This document shows, in pieces, positions 14,501 to 32,499 of a stretch of 64,000 bases of DNA. The first letter of the stretch is position 1. Every line of letters starts with the position of its first letter. The notes under the pieces were generated by a model. That model saw only the letters and a list, made by a program, of their open reading frames with translations, was not told where the DNA came from and made no database searches. The position numbers were made by a program, and so were the translations under genes. Source of the stretch: Methylocystis iwaonis (GTDB lineage Bacteria > Pseudomonadota > Alphaproteobacteria > Rhizobiales > Beijerinckiaceae); contig NZ_AP027142.1 of assembly GCF_027925385.1 (NCBI RefSeq), positions 3,248,501 to 3,312,500 of the forward strand. The letters are read 5' to 3'.

Positions 14501-14710
14501 TGTGAGAGGATAGGTGACCTGATCCTCGACCACCTGCGGCGCCTGACCCGGATATTCCGTATAGACGATCGCCTGCACGTCGGAGAGATCGGGAATGGCG
14601 TCGAGCGGCAGGGTGCGCAGCGCATAGAGACCCGCGGCGACGGCAAAGGCCGTGCCGACGAAGACCAGCACCAGATTGCGCGCCGACCAAGCAATGAGAC
14701 GGCCGATCAT
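11408..14710 (-). CDS. cusA: CusA-type heavy-metal RND efflux pump
   Basis: 1100 residues of HME-RND type. It starts MIGRLIAWSARNLVLV and contains LDAIPDLSDVQ, the TM4 proton-relay region GGIAIAIGAMVDAAIVMIEN, and the Met-bearing stretch TMPIRNRIDMLATGIRTP characteristic of Cu(I)/Ag(I) pumps. It exports monovalent copper or silver from periplasm and cytoplasm. Start overlaps the cusB stop by 4 bp. The normal C-terminus should end near LIKGVGLPADD. Here the frame continues about 60 codons, the last 42 of which (from FGVDPDARK to the stop) are dispersed-repeat DNA. Confidence 0.93.
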   Translation of the reverse strand: MIGRLIAWSARNLVLVFVGTAFAVAAGLYALRTLPLDAIPDLSDVQAIVYTEYPGQAPQVVEDQVTYPLTSAMLTVPRSKVVRGFSFFGVSFVYVIFEDGVDVYWARSRVLEYLSAATKRLPAGAAPVLGPDATGVGWVYQYALVAKEMTLAELRSLQDWTLRYGLAKAEGVAEVASVGGFVRQYNVVVDPNRLRALNIPLSRIREVIRANNADVGGRTVELSEFEFIVRGRGYLKGVTDLENIVLRAGGGTPLLLKDVARIELGPDERRGITELNGEGEVASGIALQRYGANALTVIDNVKAALAQLAPSLPKGVEIVPVYDRSELIHAAIETLRGALVEESVIVALVCVVFLLHFRSALVAIIMLPVGVLMAFAAMKALGLGSNIMSLGGIAIAIGAMVDAAIVMIENAHKRLERAPPDTPRIDILIDAATEVGPALFFSLLIITVSFLPIFTLESQEGRLFSPLAYTKTFAMASSALLSVTLVPALMVIFVRGKIVSEEKNPINRALIYIYRPIIRLVMRAKIPTVVLALAAVAVTIIPARQLGSEFMPALNEGALLYMPTTLPGLSVTKAAQLLQTQDRIIKSFPEVKSTFGKAGRAATATDPAPLEMFETVIDLKPKAEWRPGVTVESLVADMDAALQFPGVSNAWTMPIRNRIDMLATGIRTPVGVKIMGRDLAQLEGLARQVEKVVKGVRGAASAYAERVMGGYYLDIIPDRAALARYGLMMDDVQATIATALGGETVTTTVEGRERYGVNVRYPRDFRSSPRAIASDVLIPLAGGGTIPLGEVAKVDLVRGPTSIRTENGQLAVYIFVDVRDRDIGGFVTEAQKAVSEAVQFPAGSYAVWSGQYEYLERAEARMRVVVPVTLAIIFLLLYLNFRKITETLIVMLSLPFALVGGVWLMWVMNFNMSVAVGVGFIALAGVAAETGVVMLIYLDAARQEIAAQRAEEGKAFTKMDLHKAIMLGAVERVRPKMMTVVAIMAGLVPILWSTGAGSEVMQRIAVPMIGGMVSSTLLTLLVIPAIYALIKGVGLPADDQPSLRVVTSRWRGRCRALWFGVDPDARKTSDGKYRRRCEEAEPTKQTSAASLPWIASLRSQ

Positions 14711-16083: not shown

Positions 16084-17312
16084 AGCGCGCCTCCTGCCAG
16101 ACGTTCGAGGTCGGCGTATTTGCTCTGCTCCTCGACCTTCAAAGCGAGAAGCTCCAGTTCGACGGCGCGCAGGCGCCGCTCAGATTCGAGAAGCGTCGCG
16201 AGATTGGTCGTTCCGGCGTCGAAACCGCTGCGCGCCGTCTCGACAGACAGCCGCGCCGGGGGAAGCTGGCGCTGCTCGAAGATTTTGATCGCCTTGCGGA
16301 TGGCCTCCAAGCGATACCACGCCTCGGCGACGTCTCCGTCGAGGCGGATACGAAGCGCGTCGTTGCGCGCCTGCGCGGCCCCGAGACTGGCGCTGGCCGC
16401 GCGCTGCTCGGCGTCCTTCGCTTCATATTGCAGCGGCACTTTGAAGCCCAGCAGGAACATGCCGCTGTTTTCGCCGCTCTGGCGCTGCACGAAATTCGCG
16501 CCGGCGGTGATGTCCGGATAGTAGTTGAGGTCGGTCAATTCCTTCGTGGTCGTGGCGGAGCGCACCTGCGCATGCGTCGCCGCGAGCTGGGGATTCGACG
16601 ACCGGGCAAGATCCTGGACGCCGGAGAGCGTCAGCTTTGTCCTCAGCGGCGGAAAGCCCTTGGACGGCGCCAGCGGCGCACGCGCGTCGCGGCCGATGAG
16701 CGCATTCAAGCGCGCGGCCGACGATTTGACGTCCCCCTCCCTGCGGGCGACGTCGGCGGCCGCGGTGGCCGCCTCCAGCTCGGACCTGATGACCTCCTGC
16801 TGATCGACCGAGCTTGCGCCATAACGCAGTCGCAACAACTCCAGGAGCTGATCGACGCGCTGCTGGAGCGACTTCGATAATTCCAGCGCGCGCTGGGCGG
16901 CGCTGTATTGGGCGTAGGCGGTCTTCACACGAGCGACGAGATCGACCTCCATCGCCTGGCTCTGATGCCGCGACGCATCGGCGTCCGCCTGGGCGACGCC
17001 TTTTTCGAGGTCCGTCTTACCCCAGAGTCTGAAGGTCTGCTCGACGCCGATCCAGCGCTGGCCAACGCCCTTGCTGTTCACGTCCCATGCCTGCAGGGTG
17101 ATCGTCGGGTCGGGTTGAACCCCGGCGGCGCCCACGCGCTGCAAGGCCGCGTCGGCGTCGAGAACGGCGGCCGCGAGCTCTGGACTGAGCCGCCGCGCCA
17201 AGGCCACCACGCTCTCCGCCGTCGCGCCGGGCGGACTCCTTTCCGCCCCCGAAACAGGCGAAGCGAAAACGCCTATCGCGACGCAGATCGACAAAAAAAC
17301 GAGTCGCCTCAT
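16080..17312 (-). CDS. cusC: CusC-type TolC-family outer-membrane efflux protein
   Basis: 410 residues with a cleavable signal (LVFLSICVAIGVFASPVSGA) and no lipobox. Two outer-membrane-efflux repeats rich in Ala/Gln/Leu coiled coil follow (about 30-200 and 215-405). Examples are VKTAYAQYSAAQRALELSK and LYYG-type duct helices such as ELTDLNYYPDITAGA. It forms the outer-membrane channel of the Cus-type pump. The metal assignment comes from its 4-bp overlap with cusB and with the upstream FixH-like gene, not from the protein itself. Confidence 0.88.
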   Translation of the reverse strand: MRRLVFLSICVAIGVFASPVSGAERSPPGATAESVVALARRLSPELAAAVLDADAALQRVGAAGVQPDPTITLQAWDVNSKGVGQRWIGVEQTFRLWGKTDLEKGVAQADADASRHQSQAMEVDLVARVKTAYAQYSAAQRALELSKSLQQRVDQLLELLRLRYGASSVDQQEVIRSELEAATAAADVARREGDVKSSAARLNALIGRDARAPLAPSKGFPPLRTKLTLSGVQDLARSSNPQLAATHAQVRSATTTKELTDLNYYPDITAGANFVQRQSGENSGMFLLGFKVPLQYEAKDAEQRAASASLGAAQARNDALRIRLDGDVAEAWYRLEAIRKAIKIFEQRQLPPARLSVETARSGFDAGTTNLATLLESERRLRAVELELLALKVEEQSKYADLERLAGGAL

Positions 17313-17701
17313 GGAGTCGCCTGCAAGATCAGCCGGCCCTGGAGCGTTCCGGTCTCTCCCTGAATCTTCGCCGCGATGGACATGCGCCAGCGTCCCTCAT
17401 CCGTCAGATCGACCTTGAAGCGGTAAAGGCCAGGCTCAGGGCTTTGCGTCAGTTCGATGGCGCTCGTCATCGATTCCATGTCATCCGGCGCCATGTCGAG
17501 TCGCGTGGCGAAAATAATGGCGTCGCCAACAAGTTTGCCGTCCGGTTTATGGACCAGGCGCACATCGGCGAAGCTTTGCCCCTTTTTGATTCGAGTTTGA
17601 ACCAGTTGAAATGCGTAATCGTCGGCCGCCGCGCGGGCATATCCGAGGCCGAGCGCGAAGACAGCCATCGCGCCGACAAGCCGCAAGAAGTTCTGTCGCA
17701 T
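17309..17701 (-). CDS. FixH/YtkA-like periplasmic protein
   Basis: 130 residues with signal peptide (LRLVGAMAVFALGLGYARAAA). A single beta-rich domain (about 27-128) contains GQSFADVRLVHKPDGK, MAPDDMESM and PEPGLYRFKVDLTDEGRWRM, the pattern of YtkA/FixH-like domains often found next to copper or heavy-metal efflux genes. The Met-Asp-rich centre (MAPDDMESM) could contact metal. Its stop overlaps the cusC start by 4 bp, so it belongs to the Cus operon as first coupled gene. Exact function is not established; a periplasmic copper-handling role is inferred. Confidence 0.75.
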   Translation of the reverse strand: MRQNFLRLVGAMAVFALGLGYARAAADDYAFQLVQTRIKKGQSFADVRLVHKPDGKLVGDAIIFATRLDMAPDDMESMTSAIELTQSPEPGLYRFKVDLTDEGRWRMSIAAKIQGETGTLQGRLILQATP

Positions 17702-17887: not shown

Positions 17888-18211
17888 TCAGAGAATCGGG
17901 GGACGAAGGTCCGGCGGCGCCGTGCGCCCTCGATAGGCCGCGTCGTCGAATATACGACGCGCCGGTGAGAGCGCGGCCGTGATCGTCGGCACAAGGGCGC
18001 TAGGCGGCGTCAACTGAATAGCGCCGCAAATGAGAGAATCGCAGTGCCGCGGCGCCGTCGCATGGTTGGCCGAATGGTCGGGGCAGTCGTCCGCTGCGGT
18101 CATCGCCGCACAGGCATGGGGCGCAGGCGCAGCGTAACCCGGCGCCGCCGCCCACAGAGCGGCGATGACGAGCATCGCAGAGACGATAAGGCGCAGCCAG
18201 TTGAGCTTCAT
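17888..18211 (-). CDS. Small exported Cys/His protein, DUF2946-like
   Basis: 107 residues from ATG at 18211, with GGGAA about 7 nt upstream. A signal-type helix (LIVSAMLVIAALWAAAPGYA) is followed by a short region with several Cys and His (CAAM, DDCPDHSANHA, RHCDSLICG). The C-terminus is Arg/Pro-rich and ends RGRTAPPDLRPPIL. The APP near the C-terminus and the Cys/His centre recall DUF2946-type proteins, which cluster with copper genes and TonB receptors. A similar but distinct protein is encoded at 29886-30326. A copper-binding or copper-sensing role is inferred from context only. Confidence 0.6.
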   Translation of the reverse strand: MKLNWLRLIVSAMLVIAALWAAAPGYAAPAPHACAAMTAADDCPDHSANHATAPRHCDSLICGAIQLTPPSALVPTITAALSPARRIFDDAAYRGRTAPPDLRPPIL

Positions 18212-18307
18212 TGCGTTTCCCGGCCACACAATAACACAGAAGGTCCGGTCGGCAACCATCGGGGGACGGCGAACTCAACCGCGGATCGGACCAGCCACCG
18301 AAGGCGC

Positions 18308-18526
18308 TCATCGGCAAATCCAGACCCAGCCCTCGCCTGCGTCCCAATCCCAGCAGACGCTGTGCACATGGCGCCCCTTCTCGCCGCTCCAGTCGCGGTG
18401 CATATGGCGGTAGTGGCCGCCGAGGTGCTGCATGGCGCTATGTTCCCGGTGCTCCTGGCTTTGCGACGCCGCCGGCAGGGTCGTCGCGAGCAGAAGCGCC
18501 GCCATCATCATCAACCGCTTCGGCAT
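18308..18526 (-). CDS. Small exported His-rich protein
   Basis: 72 residues from ATG at 18526, with GAGGCGG 4 nt upstream; the longer frame lacks such a site. The signal peptide (MPKRLMMMAALLLATTLPAA) gives a mature peptide of about 50 residues. It is rich in His (EHREHS, HLGGHYRHMHRD, GRHVHS) and ends in a Trp/Cys motif (VCWDWDAGEGWVWICR). I do not recognise a family. The composition suggests a small periplasmic copper or zinc binder. It lies between the DUF2946-like gene (96 bp downstream) and the hypothetical gene (71 bp upstream), all on one strand. Confidence 0.65.
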   Translation of the reverse strand: MPKRLMMMAALLLATTLPAASQSQEHREHSAMQHLGGHYRHMHRDWSGEKGRHVHSVCWDWDAGEGWVWICR

Positions 18527-18597
18527 TTGTCCGCCTCTTCGATAAGCGCGCCCGATCGGCCGTTCGCCGCTTTCCGAACGGCCGGCGGGATGCGCGC

Positions 18598-19053
18598 CTA
18601 CTGCCGCCCAAGCCAGGACGTCACGCGATCTCGCAGCTCCGCGAAGCTGTGCTTCGCCGCGAGCGACCGCGCCCGGCGGGCGACCTGTTCGCTGATTGGC
18701 TGCCCGAAATGCAAGACGCCGCCGTAATGGCAGTCGCAAAGGAGTTCATGCGCCTCCGACACGGACAGCTTGAAGAAGGAGACGCCGTCGCCGACAGTGT
18801 CCCCCGACAGGCCTTCTAGCCGGAAGATCGAATCCTTGAAGGCGATGGCCAGGGGCGATCCTTCCTGCCGCAGAGCGAGGCGCCTTTTTTTCGGATAGCA
18901 TTCCATCGTCGAGAAGAGCCGCACCGGCTCACTCTCAGCTTCCATCAAGCTCGCCAGACGTTCCAGTCTCAGTCGCCGGAGCGCCCAATCGGGGCAATCC
19001 GGTCTCGAAACGGGAGCGCATGCCGGCGTGTCTTTAATAGAGCGGCGTTCCAT
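18598..19053 (-). CDS. Conserved-looking hypothetical protein in copper operon
   Basis: 151 residues from ATG at 19053, with AGG about 6 nt upstream; an in-frame extension to 19158 is possible. It is soluble with no signal or membrane helix. Cys residues fall in CAPVSRPDC, MECYPK and LLCDCHYGG. A central beta-rich part (LALRQEGSPLAIAFKD, GVSFFKLSVSEAHELL) precedes a C-terminal helix. I do not recognise the family. It is the first gene of the leftward run ending in cusA and is divergent from the STN-type TonB receptor, which makes a regulatory or metal-responsive role plausible but unproven. Confidence 0.55.
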   Translation of the reverse strand: MERRSIKDTPACAPVSRPDCPDWALRRLRLERLASLMEAESEPVRLFSTMECYPKKRRLALRQEGSPLAIAFKDSIFRLEGLSGDTVGDGVSFFKLSVSEAHELLCDCHYGGVLHFGQPISEQVARRARSLAAKHSFAELRDRVTSWLGRQ

Positions 19054-19304
19054 GTCGCACCTACTATGATCCAAGGGGGCCTTCGCCAGAACCCGGACAT
19101 CGTCCGCGAGGTTCCGAATGGACCAACATTCCTTGCTCGGGCGCTCCGAGACGCTCATGCGCTAGCTTTCGCTGCGATATGCGTGCGTCGCGCTTCGATA
19201 ACGCCAAAAATAGATGTCGAACGACGTTCCAGAAACGACACGCCACGCGTCCCAGAAAAGAAGGGAGGAGATTCGTCCTCGCCGATTTTTCTGTGTGGTG
19301 GAAA

Positions 19305-21890
19305 ATGAACGAGACAACGGCCAAAAGAGAGTGGAAGAAAACAACGGCGATAGCGATCGTCATGGCCGTGAAAGCGATCGACGCCGGCAGCCCCGCAGTC
19401 GCGCATGCCTCGATGACCAACAGGGAAATCGCACAGGCGGTCAAAACCTACCAGATTCCTCAAAGCTCGATGGATGTTGCTCTCAACCGGTTGGCGGATG
19501 CGAATGGCCTTCACGTTCTCTATCATTCGCGTCTAACGGAAAATCTCACGACCCCGGGGCTAAACGGAAATTATACGCTCTCTGGCGCGCTCGACTCGCT
19601 GCTGTCGGGAACGGGGCTCAATTACCGGCTCAGCGAGAACGGCGAAGCGATTTCGATCGTGCTGGCCCAATCGAACAGGACGGTGAGCGACGCGAGCCCA
19701 CGCAATGCGCAAGCATTGCCGCCGATCGAAGTCGGCGCGTCTCCCCAGTCAAATGAACAGGCGCCTCATGGGAGCGGAGCCGGCCGGTCCGCCGCAACCG
19801 CCTCGCGTGACCAAAACGCCGGAAAAGATGGTCTCGGCGGACGATTCACCGGCTACATGTCGGACACGGCCAGCACAACGCTGAAAACCGACGCGCCGCT
19901 GCTGAAGACTCCCTTCTCGGTGCAGGTCATCACGCGCCAGACGATGGACGATCAGCAGGCAATCGATCTCAAAGATGCGGTTGTGGGCAATTCGAGCGGC
20001 GTGCTCGCCGTGCCCAACAGCTCCTTCTACACAGGACTGATGATTCGCGGTTTTTCCACGAACACAAGCGTTTATTTCAACGGTCTGCGCCAGTACCAGC
20101 TTATGAACGTCGATACCGCCAATCTTCAGTCGGTGGACGTTTTGAAAGGTCCGGCAGCGATGCTCTATGGGCGATCCGAGCCCGGCGGCTTGGTTGATCT
20201 CGTGCCGAAACGCCCCTTGGACACACCATATTATTCCGTGCAGCAGCAAGCCGGGTCATATGGCTTTACCCGGACAACGGTGGACGCCACCGCGCCTTTG
20301 AACAAGGAGAAGACGCTCGCCTATCGCTTCAACGGCAGCTATGTGCGCTCCGACTCCTACCAGGATTTTGCAAACAAAGAATATTACTTCCTGGCGCCGA
20401 CATTCTCCATCCGCCCGAACGATCAGTTCAGGGCCAACATCGACCTGCAATTCATGCATGACGTGTTCATGCCCGAGTCCAACACCGTCGCGGTCGGCAA
20501 CAGGCCCGCATCGATTCCAATCACGCGCTATCTTCAAGACCCATCGTACACCGGCAAGCTTCCGCAGCGGTTCGACCTTAGATACTATGGCTATGACTGG
20601 ACGTTCGACATCGACAAGAATTGGAGCCTGACGAACAGGCTCTACTATCGGAGTCAGGGTCAAGACCTATCGTCGGTGTCTTTCATCGGCCTCAACCAAG
20701 CGACAGGCGCCCTGACGCGCGGCTCCTATTACCAGTCCATCACCAACCAAGGCATGGCCACAAATCTGGATTTGAAGGGCAAATTCGTCACCGGGCCCTT
20801 GAGCCATTCCACGCTTGTCGGGTTCGATTATTACAGCAACTATCAGCCGCTCGCGCCCTTCTATCTTGTCGTTCCCGCGTCGAAATATCTGCCCGCGTTC
20901 AACATCTACGCGCCGGTTTACGGAAGCAGATATGCCGGCGTAACGCCCAATCTTTTCACGACAAATTCAGAATCCTGGAAGGGCGTCTACGCTCAGGACA
21001 CGATTTCGTTCTGGGACGATAAAGTCCATCTGCTTCTCGGCGGCCGATATGATTGGGCCGAGGTCAACTGGCAGGTTAAGAATAATGATCTGCGCACCGC
21101 TTGGATCGTGAGCCCGAATTTGAGCAAGGCGTTTAGCCCACGCGTGGGTCTAACCATACAGCCGATGCCTTGGCTTTCCTTATACGCCAATTACACGAAG
21201 TCGCTGAACGCCGACAATGGACTCAACGCCGGCAGCGCGATCCCGTCGCCCTTGCCTCCGGTCCGATCCTATGAATGGGAAGGCGGCGTCAAGGCGGAGT
21301 TTTTGGATAAGCGCCTCTTGCTGACACTGGCCTATTTCGATCTCGTCAAGACGAATGTCCCGGGGCCTGATCCGACCAATCCCGGCAACACGCTGGTGGC
21401 GGGCGAAGCCGAAAGCAAAGGATTCGAGGTCGATCTAAAGGGCCAAATAAACGAAAATTGGAGCGTGATCGCCAATTATACACATGACGACGCACGCGTC
21501 ACCAAAGGCTCGCTCTACAATCCGCTCACCGAAATCAACACTCAGTTATTCATCGCTGGGAACCGGCTTCCGACCGTTCCAAAAAACATGGGCAATCTTT
21601 GGGTCAAATACGACGCTGACGGCTCATTCCAAGGCCTCAGCATCGGCGGCGGCGCGCAAGTCGTGGGAAGCGCTTTTGGCGACAACGCCAACTCCTTCAC
21701 CATTCCGGCCTACGCAATCCTGAATGGAATGATCTCTTATCGCTTCGACGTCGGTCCCGCGCATCTCACCGCGCAGCTCAACGCAAAGAATCTCTTGGAC
21801 ACGACATATTATGCGAGCGCTGCGTCCCGGTTCCAGATCATGGCCGGCCCCCCGAGAACCATACTTGGTTCCTTGCGTCTGGAATTCTGA
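19305..21890 (+). CDS. TonB-dependent receptor with N-terminal STN signalling domain
   Basis: 861 residues from ATG at 19305. A signal segment (TAIAIVMAVKAIDAGSPAVAHA) is followed by an STN domain of about 60 residues (MDVALNRLADANGLHVLYHS, then LSGALDSLLSGTGLNYRL). Next come a linker, the plug (TPFSVQVITRQTMDDQQA, MIRGFSTNTSVYFNGLRQ, VDVLKGPAAMLYGRSEPGG) and a 22-strand barrel ending in Phe (SLRLEF). STN receptors bind a ligand outside and signal through FecR to a FecI-type sigma factor; both kinds of gene lie downstream at 25490 and 29258. Given the copper genes around it, the ligand may be a copper chelate such as a methanobactin-like compound, but a ferric siderophore cannot be excluded. 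Confidence 0.9.
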   Translation: MNETTAKREWKKTTAIAIVMAVKAIDAGSPAVAHASMTNREIAQAVKTYQIPQSSMDVALNRLADANGLHVLYHSRLTENLTTPGLNGNYTLSGALDSLLSGTGLNYRLSENGEAISIVLAQSNRTVSDASPRNAQALPPIEVGASPQSNEQAPHGSGAGRSAATASRDQNAGKDGLGGRFTGYMSDTASTTLKTDAPLLKTPFSVQVITRQTMDDQQAIDLKDAVVGNSSGVLAVPNSSFYTGLMIRGFSTNTSVYFNGLRQYQLMNVDTANLQSVDVLKGPAAMLYGRSEPGGLVDLVPKRPLDTPYYSVQQQAGSYGFTRTTVDATAPLNKEKTLAYRFNGSYVRSDSYQDFANKEYYFLAPTFSIRPNDQFRANIDLQFMHDVFMPESNTVAVGNRPASIPITRYLQDPSYTGKLPQRFDLRYYGYDWTFDIDKNWSLTNRLYYRSQGQDLSSVSFIGLNQATGALTRGSYYQSITNQGMATNLDLKGKFVTGPLSHSTLVGFDYYSNYQPLAPFYLVVPASKYLPAFNIYAPVYGSRYAGVTPNLFTTNSESWKGVYAQDTISFWDDKVHLLLGGRYDWAEVNWQVKNNDLRTAWIVSPNLSKAFSPRVGLTIQPMPWLSLYANYTKSLNADNGLNAGSAIPSPLPPVRSYEWEGGVKAEFLDKRLLLTLAYFDLVKTNVPGPDPTNPGNTLVAGEAESKGFEVDLKGQINENWSVIANYTHDDARVTKGSLYNPLTEINTQLFIAGNRLPTVPKNMGNLWVKYDADGSFQGLSIGGGAQVVGSAFGDNANSFTIPAYAILNGMISYRFDVGPAHLTAQLNAKNLLDTTYYASAASRFQIMAGPPRTILGSLRLEF

Positions 21891-21925
21891 CCATCGAGCG
21901 GATTTCCGGCGGTGTGGTTTGATAC

Positions 21926-22157
21926 GAGATCCGCTTGATCGGTTCCCTGTCATTCCCGACGCTCGCTTGAGCGAGCGTCGGGAATACAGAGCCCAAAAAG
22001 CGCTGGTTTTACTCAGAGCCCGTCATTGCGAGCGAAGCGAAGCAATCCAGGCAGCGGCGCCGCCCTGGATTGCTTCGTCGGCTCCGCCTCCTCGCAATGA
22101 CGGCGGTAATTCCCGATCGCTCGCCTTGCGAGCGTCGGGAACGACAGCGAACCAATC
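21926..22157. repeat. Dispersed palindromic repeat, copy C (composite)
   Basis: Two modules lie side by side. The first is CATTCCCGACGCTCGC / GCGAGCGTCGGGAAT with the linker AAAAAGCGCTGG. The second is CATTGCGAGCGAAGCGAAG / TTCGTCGGCTCCGCC / CTCGCAATGACGG. A closing GCGAGCGTCGGGAACGAC follows. It shows that the modules of copies A and B belong to one composite element. It fills most of the 315-bp gap between the convergent receptor and RND genes. I see no gene there. Confidence 0.8.
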
Positions 22158-22205
22158 GCGCGTTTCCCCATCTCCCCGGGGCGCTTTCGCGACTTCATCG
22201 AATTT

Positions 22206-25200
22206 TCAACTGCGCGGCTGTAGCCCCCCGCTACAACCAACCGCTTCCTCTGAGCCAATCGGCGCTTCGGCGTTTCGGCGCGGCGCTCTTCTTTGCAGCT
22301 TGCTCATGACGAGATAGATAACCGGCGTCGTATAGAGCGTCATGATCTGGCTGAGAAGCAGACCGCCGACGATGGTGACGCCGACCGGGCGGCGCAATTC
22401 GGCGCCGACGCCCGTGGCCAAAGCGAGGGGGAGCGCGCCCAGCATTGCTGTCAGCGTCGTCATCAGGATCGGGCGGAACCGCTCGGCCGCCGCCGCCAGT
22501 ATGGCGTCGTGCGGCGAGAGGCCCTTCTCATGCTCTGCCTGAAGCGCGAAGTCGACGAGCATGATGCCGTTTTTCTTGACGATACCAATCAGCAGCAGAA
22601 CGCCGATCAAAGCCATGGTGGTGAATGGCGTCTGAAACGCTTCGAGCGCGACCAGCGCGCCCAGCCCGGCCGACGGCAGCGTGGAAAGGATCGTCAACGG
22701 ATGGATAAAACTCTCGTAGAGCATGCCAAGGATGATGTAGACGGCGATGAGCGCGCCGAGCACGAAGAGCGGCGTCCCCTTCACGGTCTTGATGAAATCC
22801 GCCGCGTCGCCGGCGAATTCGGCATGTAGCCCATCTGGAATGCTAAGATCGTCGACCGCCTCGCGCACCGCCGCCGCGGCGGCACCGAGCGAATAGCCGG
22901 GAGCCGTGTTGAATGTCAGCGTGATGGCGGGCGAGACGCCCTGATGATTGACGGCAAGCGGCATAGCCCCGCTCTCGATACGCGCGACCGCGGCGAGCGG
23001 CATGATCTGTCCGCCGGTCCCCGTCACATAGACGCTTTCGAGATCGGGCAGGCTGCGCTGACGCGATTCGGGCGCTTCGACGATCACGCGATATTGGTTG
23101 CGCTCTGTGTAGATGATCGACGCCTGCCTTTGGCCGAAAGCGCTGTTCAGCGCGGCGTCGATCGACGAGATCGCGACGCCCATTCGGGACGCAGCGTTGC
23201 GATCGATCATCACATTTGCTCGGAGGCCGCCTCTCTGCACGTCGCTCGATACGTCGGCGAGCTGAGGCAGCGCTTTCAGACGCTGAAGGACTTTAGGGGT
23301 CCATCGTCCCAGCTCCTCAACGGAAGCATCCCAAAGCGTGAATTGAAATTGCGCCTTGCTCTGCCGGCCGCCCGCGCGAAAATCCTGCGCCGGGATCATG
23401 AAGAGTTTCAAGCCGTCGATCTCGGCAAGCTTCGGCCGCAGCCGCGCGACAATCTCGGCGCTCGTCGCTTTGCGCTGGCCCGCCGGCTTCAGCGCGATAA
23501 AAAACCGCCCCTGATTGCCAAGCATGCCCAAGCCGCCGCCCAGGACCGAACCGACCCCCACGACGTCCGGATCGGCGCCGATCACATCGGCGGCTTTCCG
23601 CTGCAGCTCGACCATGCTCGAGAAAGATATCTCGGGCGAGGCCTCAGACGTCCCGTTGATAAGGCCGATGTCGTCCTGCGGCATGACGCCCTGAGGTATG
23701 GTGAGATAGAGCCACACAGTCACGCCTATCGTCGCCAGGATCACGAGGAGCATCACGCGCGGATGATCCACGACGGGCCGCAATGTTCGTGCATAGAGCC
23801 GCAGGATCGCGCCGAGCGCGCCGCCCACGATCCGGTCCATGACCGACGGACTCGCGGGCCGAGCCGAACGAAGATGCGCGCAGATCATCGGCGTGACCGT
23901 CAAGGACACGAGCATCGACGCGACGATTGCGAAGCTCAGCGTGAATGCGAATTCCCGCAGCATCATGCCGACGGTGTCTCTCATGAAGAGCAGAGGGACA
24001 AATACAGCGACGAGAGACAGGCTGATGGAGACGACCGTGAAGCCGATCTGCCGCGCGCCCTCGAGCGCCGCCGCGAGTCGCCCCATCCCGCGCTCGATAT
24101 TCCTTTCGATATTCTCGATCATCACGATGGCGTCGTCGACGACGAAGCCGACAGCGATCGTCAGCGCCATGAGCGAAAAATTGTCCAGCGTGAATCCTGC
24201 CGCCCAGATCGCCACGCAGGCGCTCGCAAGAGAGAGCGGGACGGTGATCCCCGCCGCAAAGGTGGGCGCCGCGCGGCGAAGGAAGAGAAACACCACCAGC
24301 ATGACGAGGATAACCGAGATCAGCAAGGCGCGCCGGATCTCCGAAACGCTGGCGCGGATCGTCTGCGTGCGGTCTGTGAGCACCGAGATGTCGACGCCGC
24401 TCGGAATCCAGTTCTGCAATCTCGGCAGCAACGCCTTTATCTGATCCACCGTCTCGATCACATTGGCGCTCGGCTGCTTGGAGACGACGACGAAAAGCGC
24501 AGGCTTGCCGTTGTACCATCCGGCCGACAGCCGGTTGCGCGGGCCCAGCTCGACAGAGGCGACGTCGCCGAGCTTCGTCACGGCGCCGGCCGAGGAAGCG
24601 ACCACAATCTGACGAAATTCCTCGGGCGTCGACAGGAGGCCGTTTGCGCCGAAGGTCAGGGAACGCGCGTCGCCGTCGAGCGCGCCGAGCGGACCGAGGA
24701 CATTGGCCTTCCGGATCGCCTCGCTCACCCTGTCGATGCTGAGGCCCATGCTCGCGAGCCGCGTCGGGTCCGCCTGGATGCGGATTGCCGGCTGCTCGGC
24801 GCCAGCGATCCTTACGTCGGCGACGCCTGGAATCTGCGCGATTCGCTGGGCGATAACCGTGTCCGCTATGTCATAGATCGCGCTGGTCGGCAGCGTATCC
24901 GACGTCATCGCGAGGGCGAAGACCGGCGGCCCGGCCAGGCTGGCCTTGCGGAAGGAAGGCGGGGACGGCAGGTCGGAGGGAAGATCGGTCATCGCCGCGT
25001 TGATCGCAGCCTGCACGTCGCGCGCCGCCGCATCGATGTTTCGGTCGAGCCCGAATTGGAGAGTGATCGACGTCGAACCGTATGAATTGGCGGAAGTGAG
25101 CTCGGTAACGCCGGATATGCCCGCGAGCCGCCGTTCCAGCGGCGCGGCCACCGAGGCCGCCATGGTGGCCGGATCGGTCCCCGGACGATTGGCGGAGACG

Positions 25201-25337
25201 CTGATGATCGGCCGCTCGACGGACGGAATGCTGGCGACCGGCAGAAAAAAATAGGCGAGCGCGCCGAGCAGGAAGAGGGCGGCGGCAATTAACGTGGTGG
25301 CGACGGGGCGTCGAATGAAAGGCGCGGAGACGTTCAT
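22206..25337 (-). CDS. Orphan RND efflux permease (HAE1, MdtB/MdtC-like)
   Basis: 1043 residues. It starts MNVSAPFIRRPVATTLIAAA, the MdtB/MdtC/MuxB pattern, and has VASIPSVERPIISVSANRPG. The TM4 proton-relay motif is VGFVVDDAIVMIENIERN, and LGALIAVYIILGMLYESFIHP opens the second transmembrane half. It is a proton-driven inner-membrane exporter. No adaptor or outer-membrane gene accompanies it, which is unusual. It follows fecR on the same strand after 152 bp, so it may belong to the FecI/FecR regulon. An export substrate related to a metal ligand is possible but only inferred. RBS GGAGCG lies just ahead of the ATG. Confidence 0.9.
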   Translation of the reverse strand: MNVSAPFIRRPVATTLIAAALFLLGALAYFFLPVASIPSVERPIISVSANRPGTDPATMAASVAAPLERRLAGISGVTELTSANSYGSTSITLQFGLDRNIDAAARDVQAAINAAMTDLPSDLPSPPSFRKASLAGPPVFALAMTSDTLPTSAIYDIADTVIAQRIAQIPGVADVRIAGAEQPAIRIQADPTRLASMGLSIDRVSEAIRKANVLGPLGALDGDARSLTFGANGLLSTPEEFRQIVVASSAGAVTKLGDVASVELGPRNRLSAGWYNGKPALFVVVSKQPSANVIETVDQIKALLPRLQNWIPSGVDISVLTDRTQTIRASVSEIRRALLISVILVMLVVFLFLRRAAPTFAAGITVPLSLASACVAIWAAGFTLDNFSLMALTIAVGFVVDDAIVMIENIERNIERGMGRLAAALEGARQIGFTVVSISLSLVAVFVPLLFMRDTVGMMLREFAFTLSFAIVASMLVSLTVTPMICAHLRSARPASPSVMDRIVGGALGAILRLYARTLRPVVDHPRVMLLVILATIGVTVWLYLTIPQGVMPQDDIGLINGTSEASPEISFSSMVELQRKAADVIGADPDVVGVGSVLGGGLGMLGNQGRFFIALKPAGQRKATSAEIVARLRPKLAEIDGLKLFMIPAQDFRAGGRQSKAQFQFTLWDASVEELGRWTPKVLQRLKALPQLADVSSDVQRGGLRANVMIDRNAASRMGVAISSIDAALNSAFGQRQASIIYTERNQYRVIVEAPESRQRSLPDLESVYVTGTGGQIMPLAAVARIESGAMPLAVNHQGVSPAITLTFNTAPGYSLGAAAAAVREAVDDLSIPDGLHAEFAGDAADFIKTVKGTPLFVLGALIAVYIILGMLYESFIHPLTILSTLPSAGLGALVALEAFQTPFTTMALIGVLLLIGIVKKNGIMLVDFALQAEHEKGLSPHDAILAAAAERFRPILMTTLTAMLGALPLALATGVGAELRRPVGVTIVGGLLLSQIMTLYTTPVIYLVMSKLQRRAPRRNAEAPIGSEEAVGCSGGLQPRS

Positions 25338-25489
25338 CTCGCTCCGCGCCGCAGGGGCAGTTGCTGGGCGCCGCGAAATGGAAAGGACGAGCGCATGAGG
25401 TCATCACAATATCGGAGCCGTTGCGGCGTCTCTTTTCTCATTCTTTCTCCTTCGACGCAGAGAGACCGGAAATCGCAGGCGCTCGAACG

Positions 25490-26434
25490 TCAATACAAGA
25501 AGGTCGCGAACGGCGTCAGACGAATGGCGCGCAGACCGAGCGACATCTCGATTTCGCTAATGATCTGCGCCGCGTCCGCGACGTCGAAAACACCAGAAAC
25601 GCGGCGACTGCAAGCTGAAGGCTCGACGCAATAAATAAACCCGCGATGGTAACGCCCAACCGTCGCCAGAACGTCGCCGAGCGGCAGCTTGGTCACGATC
25701 AGCTTCCCGCGTCGCCAGGCGGTCGCCGCCTCGACGTCCACGGTTTCGGGCGCGCCCGCCGCTGCGTCTCTCTCATAAGCGCTCTGTTGGCCCTCCTCCA
25801 CCACGACCGAGGCTCCCCCGCTCATGACCAGCACGCGATGTTCATTCACTGTGACGCGCGCGCCGGAACCGATCAAGGCGACGTCGAAGGCGGTGCCGAG
25901 CGCTGTCGCCGATCCTTCGCCAGCCTCGACGACAAAGGGACGCGCGGGGTCGCGCGCGACATCGAACCAGGCTTCGCCGGACAGCAGGATCACGCGCCGC
26001 TCCGCGGCGCTGTAGCGGACCGCGATAGAGGATCTCGCGTCGAGTTCCGCCTTTGAGCCGTCTTCCAAGGCGACGACCTTCCTTTCGCCGACGCCGGCAT
26101 AGTGATCTGCGCGGAGTCGCGTAGCGACGTCGCCCAAGGACAGCAGTAGCGCGAGAGCCGCCGCCAGTACGGCAACCGCGGCCGCGGCATGGCGTCTACC
26201 GCTATGGCGTGGCGTTTGGGCCCGACGCGACGGGCTCATCCCGGCGAGATGGCCAAACATCCGCAGGACCTCCTCGAAGGCCGCGGCATTTTCCGCGTCT
26301 TTGGCGCGCCACTGCTCGAAAGCCGCCTTTTCCTCGTCGGACGACAGTCCCGCCCTCAACCTCACGAACCAGTCGATGGCTTCGTCTCCAGCATCGTCGG
26401 AGTCGGAGGGCGGTGTTTCAGTGCCAGGCATCAT
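25490..26434 (-). CDS. FecR-family anti-sigma / signal transducer
   Basis: 314 residues. The cytoplasmic N-terminus (about 1-75) has the FecR_N/DUF4880 pattern AIDWFVRLRAGLSSDEEKAAFEQW and KDAENAAAFEE. One transmembrane helix (about 82-100, VAVLAAALALLLSL) follows, then a periplasmic FecR domain (GERKVVALEDGSKAELDARS, LLSGEAWFDVARDPARPF, GTAFDVAL). The C-terminal STN-interacting part ends LTPFATFLY. It relays receptor occupancy to a FecI-type sigma factor. It is not next to its likely partner (29258): mbnP, mbnH and a terminator lie between. MM start as called; the upstream ribosome site is weak. Confidence 0.9.
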   Translation of the reverse strand: MMPGTETPPSDSDDAGDEAIDWFVRLRAGLSSDEEKAAFEQWRAKDAENAAAFEEVLRMFGHLAGMSPSRRAQTPRHSGRRHAAAAVAVLAAALALLLSLGDVATRLRADHYAGVGERKVVALEDGSKAELDARSSIAVRYSAAERRVILLSGEAWFDVARDPARPFVVEAGEGSATALGTAFDVALIGSGARVTVNEHRVLVMSGGASVVVEEGQQSAYERDAAAGAPETVDVEAATAWRRGKLIVTKLPLGDVLATVGRYHRGFIYCVEPSACSRRVSGVFDVADAAQIISEIEMSLGLRAIRLTPFATFLY

Positions 26435-26751
26435 TGATCGAACCGAAATTGCTGCTCTTCGTCTGCTCGCATGGCGCTCAGCCGAGAGAATACTCCTCGC
26501 GCGCGAAATGCAAGCTGACCCGGAAATCCGATCGGAATCGTGTAACGCATCGGTTGGCGTAAATATTCTCTCCAGGAAGGCGCTGCATTGGCGCCTGTCG
26601 ATGCGGCCGGCAAAAGATCAGCGCCCAAGGAGGGCGTCAACAAAGAACATGCGCCCGGCAAAGAGGAGCCGCGAGACACGGCGAGCGCAGATGCGCCAGC
26701 ATCGGTTTCAGCACAACTGAAGGTGCGGGTTCGAAGATGGCGGCGCCTCTC

Positions 26752-26799
26752 GCGCGCTTTCCGCTCGCATGGGATCATGCGAGCGACGAGAAAGCGCGC
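26752..26799. repeat. Interrupted perfect palindrome
   Basis: Arms GCGCGCTTTC+CGCTCGCATG and CATGCGAGCG+GAAAGCGCGC pair over 20 bp around a GGAT loop, with a 4-nt bulge (ACGA) on one side. No T-run follows on either strand, so it is probably not an intrinsic terminator. It could be a REP-type element or a protein-binding site. Confidence 0.5.
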
Positions 26800-26805
26800 A
26801 GCTTC

Positions 26806-26860
26806 AAAAAGCAGGAGCGCATTCATTTCGCAAAAGCGCACCACTTTGCGGAATGCGCTC
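26806..26860 (-). terminator. Rho-independent terminator after mbnH
   Basis: On the minus strand the arms GAGCGCATTC / GAATGCGCTC (10 bp), plus inner CGCAAA / TTTGCG (6 bp), form a hairpin starting 24 bp after the mbnH stop. CTGCTTTTTG follows it, giving a five-T run. It should end the mbnP-mbnH transcript and separate it from fecR. Confidence 0.65.
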
Positions 26861-26883
26861 TATGACGAGGCGCCGCCTTCTCG

Positions 26884-28034
<1,151 letters not shown>

Positions 28035-28038
<4 letters not shown>

Positions 28039-28991
28039 TGCTTGCCTCCCGCCAATTTCGCGAGGCCGGCCTTGAAGACCGGGGAGGCGCCTGGCTTCGT
28101 TTGCTTGCCTGCCGTCCCGTCGGCGCCCGTGAGATTGAGGCCAAGCGCGGCGAAAATCGCGGGGCATTCCGGATCATCGAGCCCGCTCATGCAACCGACC
28201 GCGCCGCCCTTATCGACAAGAAGGTCGCTGTTCTCGAAGAGCCGGGTGAGGTCGAATTCGACGCGCTGCGTCTTCGGGTCGAAACGGTCGAAGGTCACAG
28301 TGAAACGATTTTCATGGGCGCAGGAAACGATTTCGCCCGTGGCGGGATTACCCTTGCAGCCCGTCGAGCCCAGATGCACCGTCCAGGTCTTGGTCTTGGA
28401 ACCGTCCGCTTTGACGATCGGAGACGGCGGATCGACCTCGAACACCAGGAATCGACGCCCGGCCTGCCAATTCCACGCCATGCCGGCGACATCGAGAGGC
28501 GGCGGCGCCGTCTCGACGTTGGAATGGTTGATGGAGACGGGCTTTCCGTCGATAATCGTCTCCACAGGCGCGCCGACGGAAAATTCCAGACCGACATAGG
28601 CGCGGCGCGGCGCGGTCCCGGAAATCCTCGCATTCTTGGCCGGATTACTCTCCGTGCAGGGAGCGTTGCCGCCGCGCGCGTCTTTGAAATCGACCAAAGC
28701 GACGTCGCCGTACTGCCATTCGTTTTGCGCGAGCGCCACGGGCGTACGTATTCCCTTGGCGTCGATGAGCTTCACGCCATAGATGTAAAAACGCGCCTCA
28801 TGGAGCTTGGCCTGCAGATGGGCGACGCCGAGATTGGCGAGCGGCGCCCCGCAGCCGACATCCTTTCCATCCGCCATCAGTCCGAAGTTGATGGCGACAG
28901 GCAAATCTTTCGCTGCGGCCTCTCCGACGCCGGCGAGCGCCGCGAGCGTCAATAGCAGCCAAAATGCAGTCCTTCCAATCGATCCCAGCAT
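28035..28991 (-). CDS. mbnP: MbnP-family periplasmic copper protein
   Basis: 318 residues from ATG at 28991 (GAGGG 8 nt upstream); in-frame starts at 29006 and 29102 are less likely. Signal peptide ends near GVGEAAA. The body is beta-rich with four Cys pairs candidates (GCGAP, APCTES, STGCKGN/VSCAHEN, GCMSGLDDPECP). It carries the tryptophan motif MAWNWQAG (Trp173, Trp175), the region modified to kynurenine in characterised MbnP. EARFYIYGVKLID and NEWQYGDVALVDF are also family-like. Partner of MbnH, encoded immediately downstream with ATGA overlap. In methanotrophs the pair is linked to methanobactin copper uptake, but it also occurs as a stand-alone pair, as appears to be the case here. Confidence 0.88.
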
Positions 28992-29257
28992 CGCTTCGAC
29001 CCTCATTCGCGGACCAGCAAACACATACGGCGCGGTTAATCTTCTATGCGGAACAGTGAGATACTCGCTGGCGTCCAGCGACGCCATGGCGCTTGGCCGC
29101 ACGAAAGGGCGACTTCGTCTCGACGCGCCCTCATCGAGCCAATTGTCGCACTCCCCGTCAGATCATCAGAGCTATAGGTTGTCCCAACCTCCTTAGACGC
29201 ATCAGATCGAGAATAAGGAACCTCGCCGCGGGAATTTTTTTCTGCAGCGGGCTCGTG

Positions 29258-29809
29258 TCACTCTAAAGAAGATTTGAGCGCGGCGCGGCAGGTCCGGAAA
29301 GCCAGGCTGAGATGCTTACGCACCATCCTGTCGGAGATCTCTAATTTCCGCGCAATCTCGTGGAGGGGAACGTCTTCGTAGATATGAAGCTTGAAAACCT
29401 CCCGGCACCGCGGCGGCAGAGAGCTGACAGCCACGTCGAGGAGGCGGGATTTACGTTCATAATCCAGACGTTCGTCGGCGGGAGCATCTGCGGACGGCGC
29501 TTCGACCAGATAGTCGCCAAACTGGATATAGCCCGCCTCGGTTCTCCGGCGGCGCACAAAATCGCGCGCCAGATTAGTCGCGATCGTTTTTAGGAAGGCC
29601 GGCGGATCATTGATTCTCTCCGGCTTTTCCAGCCGGACGACTCGGACAAAGGTCTCTTGAAGAAGGTCCGGCGCGTCGGTCGAGCCGACCTTTCGCGTGA
29701 GGTAGCGGAGAAGGTCTCCTTGGCTCGAAAGGAAGACCTCACGAAGCGAATAAGCTTCCCCAACGGGAGCACGCGACTGCTCGCCGCTCGATGAAACGGT
29801 TGAAAACAC
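29258..29809 (-). CDS. FecI-type ECF sigma factor
   Basis: 183 residues from a GTG start at 29809 (GGGAG 7-8 nt upstream). Sigma region 2 is seen at about 25-90 (DLLRYLTRKVGSTDAPDLLQ, ETFVRVVR, FLKTIATNLARDFVRRRR). Region 4 is at about 120-175 (SLPPRCREVFKLHIYEDVPL, HEIARKLEISDRMVRKHLS). It directs RNA polymerase to promoters of a cell-surface-signalled regulon. Likely partners are FecR (25490) and the STN receptor (19305), though fecI and fecR are unusually 2.8 kb apart. It lies downstream of the DUF2946-like gene (76 bp) and upstream of mbnP (266 bp). Confidence 0.92.
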   Translation of the reverse strand: MFSTVSSSGEQSRAPVGEAYSLREVFLSSQGDLLRYLTRKVGSTDAPDLLQETFVRVVRLEKPERINDPPAFLKTIATNLARDFVRRRRTEAGYIQFGDYLVEAPSADAPADERLDYERKSRLLDVAVSSLPPRCREVFKLHIYEDVPLHEIARKLEISDRMVRKHLSLAFRTCRAALKSSLE

Positions 29810-29885
29810 GTTGCTTCTCCCTGACGGCGCTGTCGGCCGCGAGAACCGAAATTATCTTGCGCAGACTCTGGCTGCGTTCGGTCGA

Positions 29886-30326
29886 TCAGGAGAAGAAGGG
29901 TGGCGCGCGAGACGACCAGCTATTCAACCGGCCCGGGATGGGCCAGGGTTCGTCCAAGAGGCCATAAGCGGCGATTTGGCGCTCGGGGAATAAGTCCAGG
30001 ATAGCGAAGCAAGTGACCGCGAACGCCAGAGCAGACGCCGCGCGGCCGTTCGCCAAACAATGGTCGCGGCATTTGGAATGATGACTATCGCCATGCGCCG
30101 GAGCGGCGTTATCGCCCTCCAGGCTGCACAAGGCGGCGGCTTCCGAGGATGCGTATAGACCGATGACCCCGGAAAGCTTTATCGCTCCCGCTAATGACGC
30201 GAGCTGAAGCATAAAAATAGATAGCGTGGCGCAAGCGATAAACGCGCGCCGAAAGCTGCTGTATTTTATCTGCCGCCAAGCCATCGCCCCTAAAATGGCC
30301 GAAGTCTGTAGAGTGTCAAGCTCCAT
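29886..30326 (-). CDS. DUF2946-like membrane/exported protein
   Basis: About 146 residues from ATG at 30326; starts at 30497 and 30284 are alternatives. Hydrophobic segments occur at FIACATLSIFMLQLASLAGA and RAASALAFAVTCFAI. Between them lies a Cys/His cluster (ALCSLEGD, AHGDSHHSKCRDHC). The C-terminus is SWSSRAPPFFS. The Cys/His loop and SRAPP tail are typical of the DUF2946 family, which sits beside copper receptors and copper regulons in proteobacteria. Upstream of the FecI-type gene on the same strand, it probably shares its transcript. It is a distant relative of the gene at 17888. Function unknown; copper binding inferred. Confidence 0.7.
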   Translation of the reverse strand: MELDTLQTSAILGAMAWRQIKYSSFRRAFIACATLSIFMLQLASLAGAIKLSGVIGLYASSEAAALCSLEGDNAAPAHGDSHHSKCRDHCLANGRAASALAFAVTCFAILDLFPERQIAAYGLLDEPWPIPGRLNSWSSRAPPFFS

Positions 30327-30846
30327 GGTCGCGCTTGTCCTATCCACCCTTTGCATTTGGATAAGGCTCTGAAAATCACGCCTTTCAGCGACCGTCGGCG
30401 TGAAATCTGGAACGCGGACGAAACCTTGGCGGTTAGGACAATGAAAGATCGTGACGCGGTCGATCGAGCGGCCCGAGAACTCGTCCAACCCGAGCATTAA
30501 GACAATCCGGCAACTTATAGTTTAATCTTTTCATTAGGGGCCATCCCGGCCGTGACCGCGGCTACAGCGCTTCCGCAAAAGAGATACTAGAAGTCCGCTT
30601 GATTGGTTCGGGGTCGTTCCGGACGCTCGCGCAGCGAGCGATCGGGAATGACAAGCGCCAGTGCGAGCTATTCCCGGAAATGGCATGATAGACTTTCGCG
30701 AAAAGAACGCGCTCCAGCTTTTTGACTCTACGCCATTTCTCATCGCTTGTATGAATCCACGCCAGCGGAAAGCCCGCTAGGGCGCCGCCGGAAACAATTT
30801 CGCATGGGCAGGGTTGTTCCCGCGTCTCAACTTGCGGAGAAGCCTC
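30327..30846. other. Divergent intergenic region with repeat copy D
   Basis: This 520-bp gap lies between the leftward DUF2946-like/sigma genes and the rightward csp gene, so it should carry both promoters. It includes repeat copy D (30591-30683). Short inverted arms TATCCA/TGGATA lie just ahead of the DUF2946-like gene (about 30334-30357). No further gene is supported. Confidence 0.5.
30591..30683. repeat. Dispersed palindromic repeat, copy D
   Basis: A short copy: CCGCTTGATTGGTTCGG, the palindrome GGACGCTCGCGCAGCGAGCG, ATCGGGAATGACAAGC and the tail GTGCGAGCTATTCCCGGAAA. It matches the ends of copy A, with the internal module missing. Confidence 0.7.
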
Positions 30847-31257
30847 ATGCACACTCAGGAGATCATCGGGACGCATCCAGACGTAAAGGGGCAGACCAAC
30901 CAAGCCCTGATCCGCGCGATCGAGGAATGCTACGACTGCGGACAGAGCTGCATTTCCTGCGCCGACGCTTGTATCGGGGAGCAAGAGGTCACGCGCCTCA
31001 GGCAGTGCATCCGCCTCAACCTCGATTGCGCGGACATTTGCTTTGCAGCCGGGGCGATTGCAACGCGCCGCACGGGAAGCAATGAGGAGATCATCCGTTC
31101 CACGCTGGAGAACTGCATGCTGGCCTGCCGCCTCTGCGCAGACGAATGCCAGAAGCACGCGCAGTCGCATGAGCATTGCCGTATCTGCGCGGAGGCCTGT
31201 CAGAGCTGCGAGCAAGCGTGCCAGCAAGCGGTTCAGACCCTCGGCGCCACGCACTGA
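30847..31257 (+). CDS. csp3: Csp3-type cytosolic copper-storage protein (four-helix bundle)
   Basis: 136 residues from ATG at 30847 (GGAG 7 nt upstream). It has 17 Cys, at 28, 31, 35, 38, 42, 54, 61, 65, 90, 94, 97, 101, 111, 114, 118, 121 and 125. Most are spaced C-x2-3-C as expected along the inside of a four-helix bundle. His104, His108 and His110 may guard the open end. Csp proteins bind many Cu(I) ions in the bundle core. There is no signal peptide or Tat motif, so it is the cytosolic (Csp3) form, not the exported Csp1. It is a single gene divergent from the sigma-factor cluster and fits the copper theme. The in-frame start at 30814 has no better ribosome site. Confidence 0.9.
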   Translation: MHTQEIIGTHPDVKGQTNQALIRAIEECYDCGQSCISCADACIGEQEVTRLRQCIRLNLDCADICFAAGAIATRRTGSNEEIIRSTLENCMLACRLCADECQKHAQSHEHCRICAEACQSCEQACQQAVQTLGATH

Positions 31258-31290: not shown

Positions 31291-32499
31291 TCAGCGTTCG
31301 TGTAGCGCCTCTTGCCCTTTCAATATCGGTTTGAGCAAATAGTCGAGCACGGTTTTCTTGCCGGTCTGAATATTGACGTCGGCGACCATTCCGGGCTTGA
31401 TCGGGAGGGGGCCGTCCGGACCCTGCAACGCAGCCGTGTCGGTGAGCACGCGGACTCTATAATAGGGGTCGGCGTCCTTCCGCGTCTCGTCCTTGAGGGT
31501 GTCGGCGCTGATAAACACAAGCTCTCCGGTGAGCATCCCGTAGATCGTGTAATCATAAGCCGTGATTTTGACATTGGCGCGCTGACCCGTATGCAGGAAG
31601 GCGACGTCCTGGGGCCTGATTTCGGCTTCGACATAGAGCTGATCGTCGAGCGGCACGATTTCCATGATGGTCTCGCCGGGAGAGACGACGCCGCCGCGCG
31701 TCGTCACTTTCAAATTCTTGACGATGCCGCGCACTGGCGATTTCAGCACGGCATGGGTGAGCGCGTCGCGTTTCTGTTCGCGCTGCTGCGTCAGGCTCGC
31801 AAGCTCGGCGCTCTTTTTGGTGATCTGGTCGTTGATTTCCTGAAAGTAGGAATTGCGGGCTTCCGCCAGTTGCCCCTTCAGATCGGCCAGCGTCCGCTCG
31901 AGCTCGATCTGTTTCAACCTGCTCGAAGCGCCCCGCTCCACCATCGGCTTGAGCAGTTCGAGCTGTCGGGAGGTCAGTCCGATGCGTTCGTCGAGCGAAG
32001 AAACTGCTTCCGAAAAATGTTGCCGCCGCGCATTGAAGAGGCTGATTTCGCCTCGGATGATCTCGTCGTTGGCCTTTACGTCCCGGTTGAAGTCGATGTG
32101 ATCGGCGCCGCTCAGCTCCGCGTAAAGCCGGCTCAACGCGGCCTTCAAAGCGATCGTCTGGCCGTCGAGATCCTGATAGGCGGCGCGGAACTGCGTATCT
32201 TCGATGACGGCGAGCTTCTGGCCGACCGCGACCTCCTCGCCTTCCTGAACGGCAAGGGACTCCAGGATTCCTCCTTGCAGACTTTGGATAACCTGGCTGC
32301 GGCTCAATGGCTCGACCTTCCCGGCGCCATTGGTGACCTCGTCGAGCGAGGCATTAGCCGCCCAGACCAAAAAAACCACGAGACCAAGCGCGGTGATCCA
32401 GAGAAGTGGCCGCGACATTCTGTAGCGATCGGAGGCTTCGTCCTCCATCGTAGCGGCGATCAGCGCAGCCGCATTGGCGCCGATGCGTTTCATGTCCAT
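31291..32499 (-). CDS. HlyD-family type I secretion membrane fusion protein
   Basis: 402 residues from ATG at 32499, overlapping the ABC gene stop as TGATG; the longer frame to 32691 is rejected. One N-terminal membrane helix (PLLWITALGLVVFLVWAANA) leads into a lipoyl half (VIQSLQGGILESLAVQEGEE). A long coiled-coil hairpin (about 120-270) follows, then the HlyD signature region (RGIVKNLKVTTRGGVVSPGE, VEAEIRPQDVAFLHTGQ) and the C-terminal PGMVADVNIQTGKKTVLDYL. It connects the ABC exporter to TolC in a type I system. The cognate cargo is very probably the giant adhesin upstream. Confidence 0.93.
   Translation of the reverse strand: MDMKRIGANAAALIAATMEDEASDRYRMSRPLLWITALGLVVFLVWAANASLDEVTNGAGKVEPLSRSQVIQSLQGGILESLAVQEGEEVAVGQKLAVIEDTQFRAAYQDLDGQTIALKAALSRLYAELSGADHIDFNRDVKANDEIIRGEISLFNARRQHFSEAVSSLDERIGLTSRQLELLKPMVERGASSRLKQIELERTLADLKGQLAEARNSYFQEINDQITKKSAELASLTQQREQKRDALTHAVLKSPVRGIVKNLKVTTRGGVVSPGETIMEIVPLDDQLYVEAEIRPQDVAFLHTGQRANVKITAYDYTIYGMLTGELVFISADTLKDETRKDADPYYRVRVLTDTAALQGPDGPLPIKPGMVADVNIQTGKKTVLDYLLKPILKGQEALHER

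Follow-up and report, generated by a model that had tools for sequence, protein, structure and literature searches.

A methanobactin receptor and signalling locus without a synthesis core in Methylocystis iwaonis: a candidate system for uptake of a foreign group-I methanobactin

Gene content of the locus

The window analysed here is a stretch of 64,000 nucleotides from Methylocystis iwaonis, corresponding to positions 3248501-3312500 of contig C1 in a genome of 4.48 Mb (seven contigs). It encodes relatives of the proteins MbnI, MbnR, MbnT, MbnP and MbnH together with an RND permease, and this set is probably an orphan methanobactin import-and-signalling module that lacks the synthesis core and serves a foreign group-I methanobactin. 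The observed basis of this reading consists of gene content, clade membership, synteny, the predicted MbnA peptides of relatives, intact frames and purifying selection.

The minus-strand order is small protein, FecI, MbnP, MbnH, FecR and RND permease, with the receptor on the plus strand (Table 1). The adjacent genes mbnP and mbnH share ATGA at 28035-28038, as read in the sequence and its translations; motif checks show that MbnP keeps the WNW (WxW) motif and MbnH both CxxCH motifs, and MbnP is 99% identical to its counterpart in Methylocystis sp. Sn-Cys. The receptor open reading frame (ORF) opens at 19179, upstream of the start predicted from the signal peptide. An extracytoplasmic function (ECF) sigma factor, a FecR protein and an STN-bearing receptor, the combination that defines an MbnIRT module, occur together in the window. 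A first-pass annotation, made from the letters and their translations, had already named the overlapping mbnP-mbnH pair, the FecI-type sigma factor, FecR, the STN receptor, a Csp copper store and a CusCBA pump, and profile and structure searches bore out all of them. Its two 'DUF2946-like' proteins fared differently: neither small protein matches any Pfam family at E <= 1 and the label was dropped, while relatives of one (29886-30497) adjoin FecI at three places in genome G241 and at one in G298, two other members of the genus.

Table 1. Features of the module and its neighbours, with window coordinates and basis of assignment
Feature	Position	Strand	Basis and remarks
MbnP, copper-binding partner protein	28035-28991	-	TIGR04052 281 bits (cut-off 140); PDB 7l6g, E 2.5e-145; start predicted from signal peptide
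MbnH, di-haem enzyme	26884-28038	-	TIGR04039 491 bits (cut-off 363); PDB 6e1c, E 3.2e-205
FecI/MbnI-type ECF sigma factor	29258-29809	-	Pfam Sigma70_r2 and r4_2, over cut-offs
FecR/MbnR-type anti-sigma sensor	25490-26434	-	Pfam DUF4880 and FecR, over cut-offs
MbnT1-type TonB-dependent receptor with STN signalling domain	19305-21890	+	Pfam STN, Plug and barrel over cut-offs; tree of 40 receptors
MdtBC/HAE1-like RND permease	22206-25337	-	ACR_tran; NCBIfam MdtC 1156 bits, under cut-off 1774
FecR-MbnH gap	26435-26883		371 bp at 26522-26892, in the place of 6.8 kb in G241; dispersed repeat 26739-26876
Small protein with His/Cys-rich stretch	29886-30497	-	No Pfam family
Csp3-like copper storage protein, neighbour	30850-31257	+	PDB 5arm, E 1.4e-44; DUF326
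CusCBA-type metal efflux genes, neighbour	11408-17312	-	CusA TIGR00914 1185 bits, over cut-off; CusB- and CusC-like by Pfam
YtkA-like protein, neighbour	17309-17701	-	PF13115

Native methanobactin operon and relationships of the receptor

The first-pass annotation found neither mbnB nor mbnC. That holds for the window, where none of the genome's MbnB-family or MbnC matches lies (mbnN was not searched for). It does not hold for the organism: an mbnABC operon elsewhere in the genome, which the annotation had listed as contrary evidence if it regulated this locus, is present on contig C2, and the notion of an organism without methanobactin biosynthesis was rejected. The curated profile cut-offs were 363 bits for TIGR04039, 140 for TIGR04052, 325 for MbnB, 185 for MbnC, 285 for MbnM and 800 for MbnF; against these the C2 operon scores 451 bits for MbnB (C2:39927-40706), 294 for MbnC (C2:40756-41295), 441 for MbnM and 900 for MbnF, and a second MbnP/MbnH pair accompanies these genes. 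MbnS was called from its position and from 70-77% identity with its counterparts in other group-II operons; the NCBIfam search gave no match for it. The MbnA precursor is MKIRIAKRVELNVIGRASARCASTCAMTNG, with the C-terminus RCASTCAMTNG. Since Kenney and Rosenzweig (2013; PMC3621798) gave RCASTCAMT as the predicted core of Methylocystis strain M, by sequence the organism encodes a group-II methanobactin. Its mbnA (contig C2; L007:16976-17842) shares its reading frame with the last part of the ECF sigma ORF that precedes it (NF040705 over cut-off) and has a separate ATG with AGGAG a few bases upstream. PMC3621798 had already remarked on the apparent sigma-mbnA fusion of group II; in genome G247 (L112) the sigma part of this ORF is interrupted by stops or a frame change, and mbnA is intact.

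Two further observations concern the genome's methanobactin-related genes. A small paired-Cys/His protein adjoins the sigma gene of the C2 operon as well (L005:10-378); its alignment with the small protein of the window shows weak similarity, and it matches no Pfam family. Four more MbnB_TglH_ChrH proteins (C1:81611, C1:83675, C1:881918 and C1:1845016), two of them about 2 kb apart, exceed the Pfam cut-off, lie far under the MbnB cut-off and may belong to other peptide-modifying systems.

A tree of 40 receptors places the window receptor in a clade of 19 rows (Shimodaira-Hasegawa-like approximate likelihood ratio test, 99) that includes all seven non-group-II receptors found beside mbnBC and whose members adjoin group-I-type mbn cores or orphan MbnPH pairs. 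The group-II receptors form a separate clade with C1:117107 of the same genome, and the window receptor stands apart from those other receptors of its own genome that the tree includes. Because of long branches among the latter, the plug and barrel were also compared directly: those of the window receptor are 94% identical to the G241 receptor, 40-53% identical to the rest of the clade and at most 33% identical to other receptors of the same genome, and with group-II-type MbnT they give a partial alignment of about 135-160 residues at 23-26% identity, which does not place them in group II. C1:117107 is itself a group-II-type MbnT, 57% identical to the receptor beside the mbn operon of genome G177, and C1:184278 is a 44% relative of that operon-linked receptor. 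These comparisons suggest that the native group-II methanobactin is probably retaken through the C1:117107 receptor and that the window receptor is probably not the partner or importer of the C2 product.

The same receptor data bear on a different origin, namely an ordinary ferric-siderophore receptor with FecI and FecR that stands beside MbnPH by chance. The receptor scores 330.4 bits against TIGR01783 (TonB siderophore receptor subfamily; cut-off 223.5), and the solved structures that it matches best are those of FoxA, FhuA and further siderophore receptors; TIGR01783, however, also served as the mbnT model in PMC12997803. The scores against the FecIRA equivalogs fall well under their cut-offs (FecA, 68.5 against 1100 bits; FecI, 65.5 against 260; FecR, 138.3 against 385), and the receptor clusters with receptors linked to mbn operons. 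We regard a chance siderophore system as very improbable.

Relatives that carry the synthesis core

A receptor of at least 85% identity occurs in four of the 39 genomes of the genus that were surveyed: that of the window, G151 (same species), G241 and G298, the nearest receptors outside the species being those of G241 (90%) and G298 (87%). The genes mbnABCMF lie beside the receptor in G241 and G298 and not in the window genome or G151. With matches covering more than 30% of the reference, the order in G241 is receptor (90% identity), permease (88%), FecR (78%), mbnA, mbnB, mbnC, mbnM, mbnF, transposase, MbnH, MbnP and FecI; in G298, on a 205-kb contig, it is small protein, FecI, FecR, receptor (87%), MbnP, MbnH, mbnA, mbnB, mbnC, mbnM, mbnF and permease (81%), so that the permease is retained next to the module in both. 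DNA alignment places the 6.8-kb stretch of G241 that holds mbnABCMF and the transposase exactly at the 371 bp of the window, whose sequence is unrelated to it. The MbnA proteins of G241 and G298 have identical last 19 residues, VQAFCSSCSGGGQCGCGPA, quite unlike the native MbnA. This shared end leads to the prediction of a foreign ligand, which is probably a group-I methanobactin of the CSSCSGGGQCGCGPA type found in G241 and G298; the prediction is drawn from the sequences of uncleaved precursors.

In the FecR-MbnH gap, a search for remnant mbn DNA recovered only homology to G241 upstream of FecR and a repeat of about 120 bp; the latter was dropped as a special marker of the cassette edge, since 26739-26876 matches 43 places in the same genome and its position at the gap means little. 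An exact-core pattern gave one match in the window, about the number expected by chance. Close to the mbn operon the repeat recurs three times in C2:46000-55000 and once at C2:27738. The sequence comparison fits both directions of change, and the core may have been lost in this species or gained in G241 and G298.

The missing core at the site equivalent to that of G241 could also mark the window as a decaying, functionless remnant of a lost mbn operon, and decay is seen in G241 itself, where MbnP and MbnH linked to the core are each broken into two frames (L118:14675-16891, L091; in the motif alignment the broken MbnH is represented by its shorter piece, 22% filled, and carries little weight). 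In the window, by contrast, all frames are open, and in G151 the six main genes have counterparts at 96-99% identity. The ratios of nonsynonymous to synonymous substitution rates (dN/dS) against G241 are 0.08 for the receptor, 0.14 for the permease, 0.25 for FecR, 0.08 for MbnH, 0.13 for MbnP and 0.09 for FecI, with a weaker 0.35 for the small protein; the module genes are under purifying selection, as measured by pairwise ratios that are blind to the branch. We find it scarcely credible that the locus is a functionless remnant.

The flanks of the locus can be compared with the same genome. In G241 a further MbnPH-FecI set, with its frames intact, adjoins Csp at a place that matches the window flank, and no CusCBA-type genes were found in the two G241 stretches compared. 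The Csp3-like protein of the window is a flanking neighbour, with a putative role in the module. At higher coordinates, labels given by eye apply to type I secretion-like genes at 31291-36097 (ABC transporter, HlyD-like and outer membrane protein), two genes resembling IS21-type istA/istB at 36236-38466 and an adjoining ORF of 3860 residues with many near-identical repeats (38971-50553), likely a large adhesin; the istA/istB-like genes separate it from the secretion genes.

The family-wide survey of 298 genomes, with up to six candidates scored per genome, addresses whether MbnP and MbnH might handle copper without methanobactin, like CorA/CorB or MopE/SACCP, while the receptor takes up another copper complex. 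MbnH exceeds its cut-off in 26 genomes and MbnC in 22, with both in 21 (Fisher p 1.6e-26, which overstates the association because the genomes are related and was not corrected for relatedness). Only one genome has MbnC alone, and five of the 26 have MbnH without MbnC over cut-off (G042, G072, G089, G126 and G292, of which G292 has a fragment of MbnC below cut-off). Three of these, G042, G089 and G126, carry MbnPH beside a T1-type receptor and have no MbnC match; judged by gene content, they are candidate users that produce no methanobactin. Such genomes, and MbnPH pairs far beyond mbn producers (PMC3621798), are what a methanobactin-free function would predict; the presence of MbnH in 21 of the 22 genomes with MbnC, and the mbn cores flanked by the nearest receptors, count against it, and we hold it to be improbable.

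Proposed function and comparison with known systems

The regulators relate differently from the receptor. In trees limited to rows with more than 70% coverage and more than 100 bits (the FecR fragment of the G146 operon and the cut FecI of G200 being excluded), the window FecI groups with those of G151 and G241 and with the FecI encoded next to group-II-type signalling receptors in G146 and G042 (six-row clade, 100/99; n=18). The window FecR, with those of G151 and G241, likewise stands among MbnR2-like proteins of G146 and G042 (five-row clade, 100/98; n=17). Neither groups with the G298 pair, and besides its close kin the nearest pair among those sampled is that of G146. This genome is taken to be Methylosinus trichosporium OB3b on two grounds: its MbnA agrees in every residue with the OB3b precursor as printed, and MbnH exceeds its cut-off three times, the number given for OB3b in PMC3621798. 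Its receptor of 975 residues at C1:445135, preceded by FecI and FecR, is consistent with the published MbnT2. MbnT2 of OB3b imports heterologous group-II methanobactin, and genetic tests showed that induction by this compound requires MbnI2R2 as well as the signalling domain of MbnT2 (PMC9601215).

Several points weigh against the import of a foreign ligand, and some of them point instead to a split native system in which the window receptor and regulators import or sense the group-II methanobactin made from C2. No TonB receptor was found in C2:22000-58000 with the G177 or the window receptor as query, so the window receptor could serve the native operon; since MbnI2/R2-like regulators answer group-II methanobactin in OB3b (PMC9601215), the module might be triggered by the methanobactin that the strain itself makes; and the STN domain resembles T1- and T2-type receptors to about the same degree. 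In addition, a close receptor occurs in only two genomes outside the species, the receptor tree was a quick one with several long branches, selection was read from the branch-blind ratios given above, and the whole reading rests on sequence comparison, from which we infer the ligand, the signalling, the direction of cassette loss or gain and the chemistry of MbnP. A split native system is nevertheless opposed by the group-II-type MbnT at C1:117107 and by a plug and barrel that resemble MbnT1-type receptors only, and we consider it unlikely, though less so than the other alternatives above.

With uptake of a foreign group-I methanobactin as the preferred reading, copper-loaded methanobactin from another strain would bind the MbnT1-type receptor, whose STN domain would signal through MbnR (FecR) and release MbnI (FecI), and the freed MbnI would raise expression of the module. 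Methanobactin would reach the periplasm, where MbnP, matured by MbnH through oxidation of a tryptophan, would take or hold the copper. MbnP is known for MbnH-dependent kynurenine formation and copper binding. Such properties are described for MopE in PMC3621798. The first-pass annotation had offered surface-signalled copper acquisition or sensing, by an exogenous ligand or by direct copper handling in MbnP and MbnH. Its interpretation is partly supported: the former survives in sharper form, and the latter is now less likely.

A more specific scenario, which we advance tentatively as possible but short of probable, is that of a producer turned thief: the lineage would have kept or acquired a group-I shell (receptor, permease, sensor and MbnPH, matching the MbnA end VQAFCSSCSGGGQCGCGPA) under MbnI2/R2-type regulators, robbing neighbours of copper while making its own group-II methanobactin. 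If true, this would be the reverse of the OB3b MbnT2 system and would imply mutual piracy across both methanobactin groups. Copper determines which methane monooxygenase methanotrophs use, and piracy of this kind would turn their competition for copper into a matching of receptors and peptides. The locus pairs a receptor with a named predicted foreign ligand in a strain that encodes a methanobactin of the other group. Among close relatives this shell occurs both with its core and without it, a natural comparison for the change from producer to user that also bears on the role of MbnP and MbnH where the locus makes no methanobactin.

Copper piracy of this form is known, though little studied, and the idea has been published in general terms: PMC12997803 discusses strains that carry mbnT but lack biosynthesis genes. 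Isolated MbnPH pairs beside an MbnT-like receptor, MbnI and MbnR were described in 2013 (PMC3621798). The present locus adds a case from Methylocystis and from a group-II producer, whose relatives show both the absent core and its peptide, together with a sharp ligand prediction.

Among known systems, FecIRA for ferric citrate has a similar architecture of sigma factor, anti-sigma factor and STN receptor, from which the window differs in its sub-threshold equivalog scores, its receptor clade and MbnPH. Group-I mbn operons with MbnT1 share with the window the receptor clade, MbnP, MbnH, the ECF sigma factor and FecR, whereas the window locus is without mbnA, mbnB, mbnC, mbnM and mbnF. The isolated MbnPH sets of Methylosinus (PMC3621798) are alike in that MbnP-MbnH lies away from the mbn operon of a producer, beside an MbnT-like receptor, an ECF sigma factor and FecR; the window set differs in its genus, in its order FecI-MbnP-MbnH-FecR-RND with the receptor on the opposite strand, and in a receptor whose orthologues in two relatives flank a biosynthetic core. 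OB3b MbnI2R2T2 (PMC9601215) is likewise a signalling receptor with MbnI and MbnR for a methanobactin that its host does not make, as is proposed from the genes for the window, which adds MbnPH to the module; OB3b, however, is a group-I producer whose group-II-type receptor imports group-II methanobactin, whereas the window strain encodes a group-II methanobactin and carries a group-I-type receptor.

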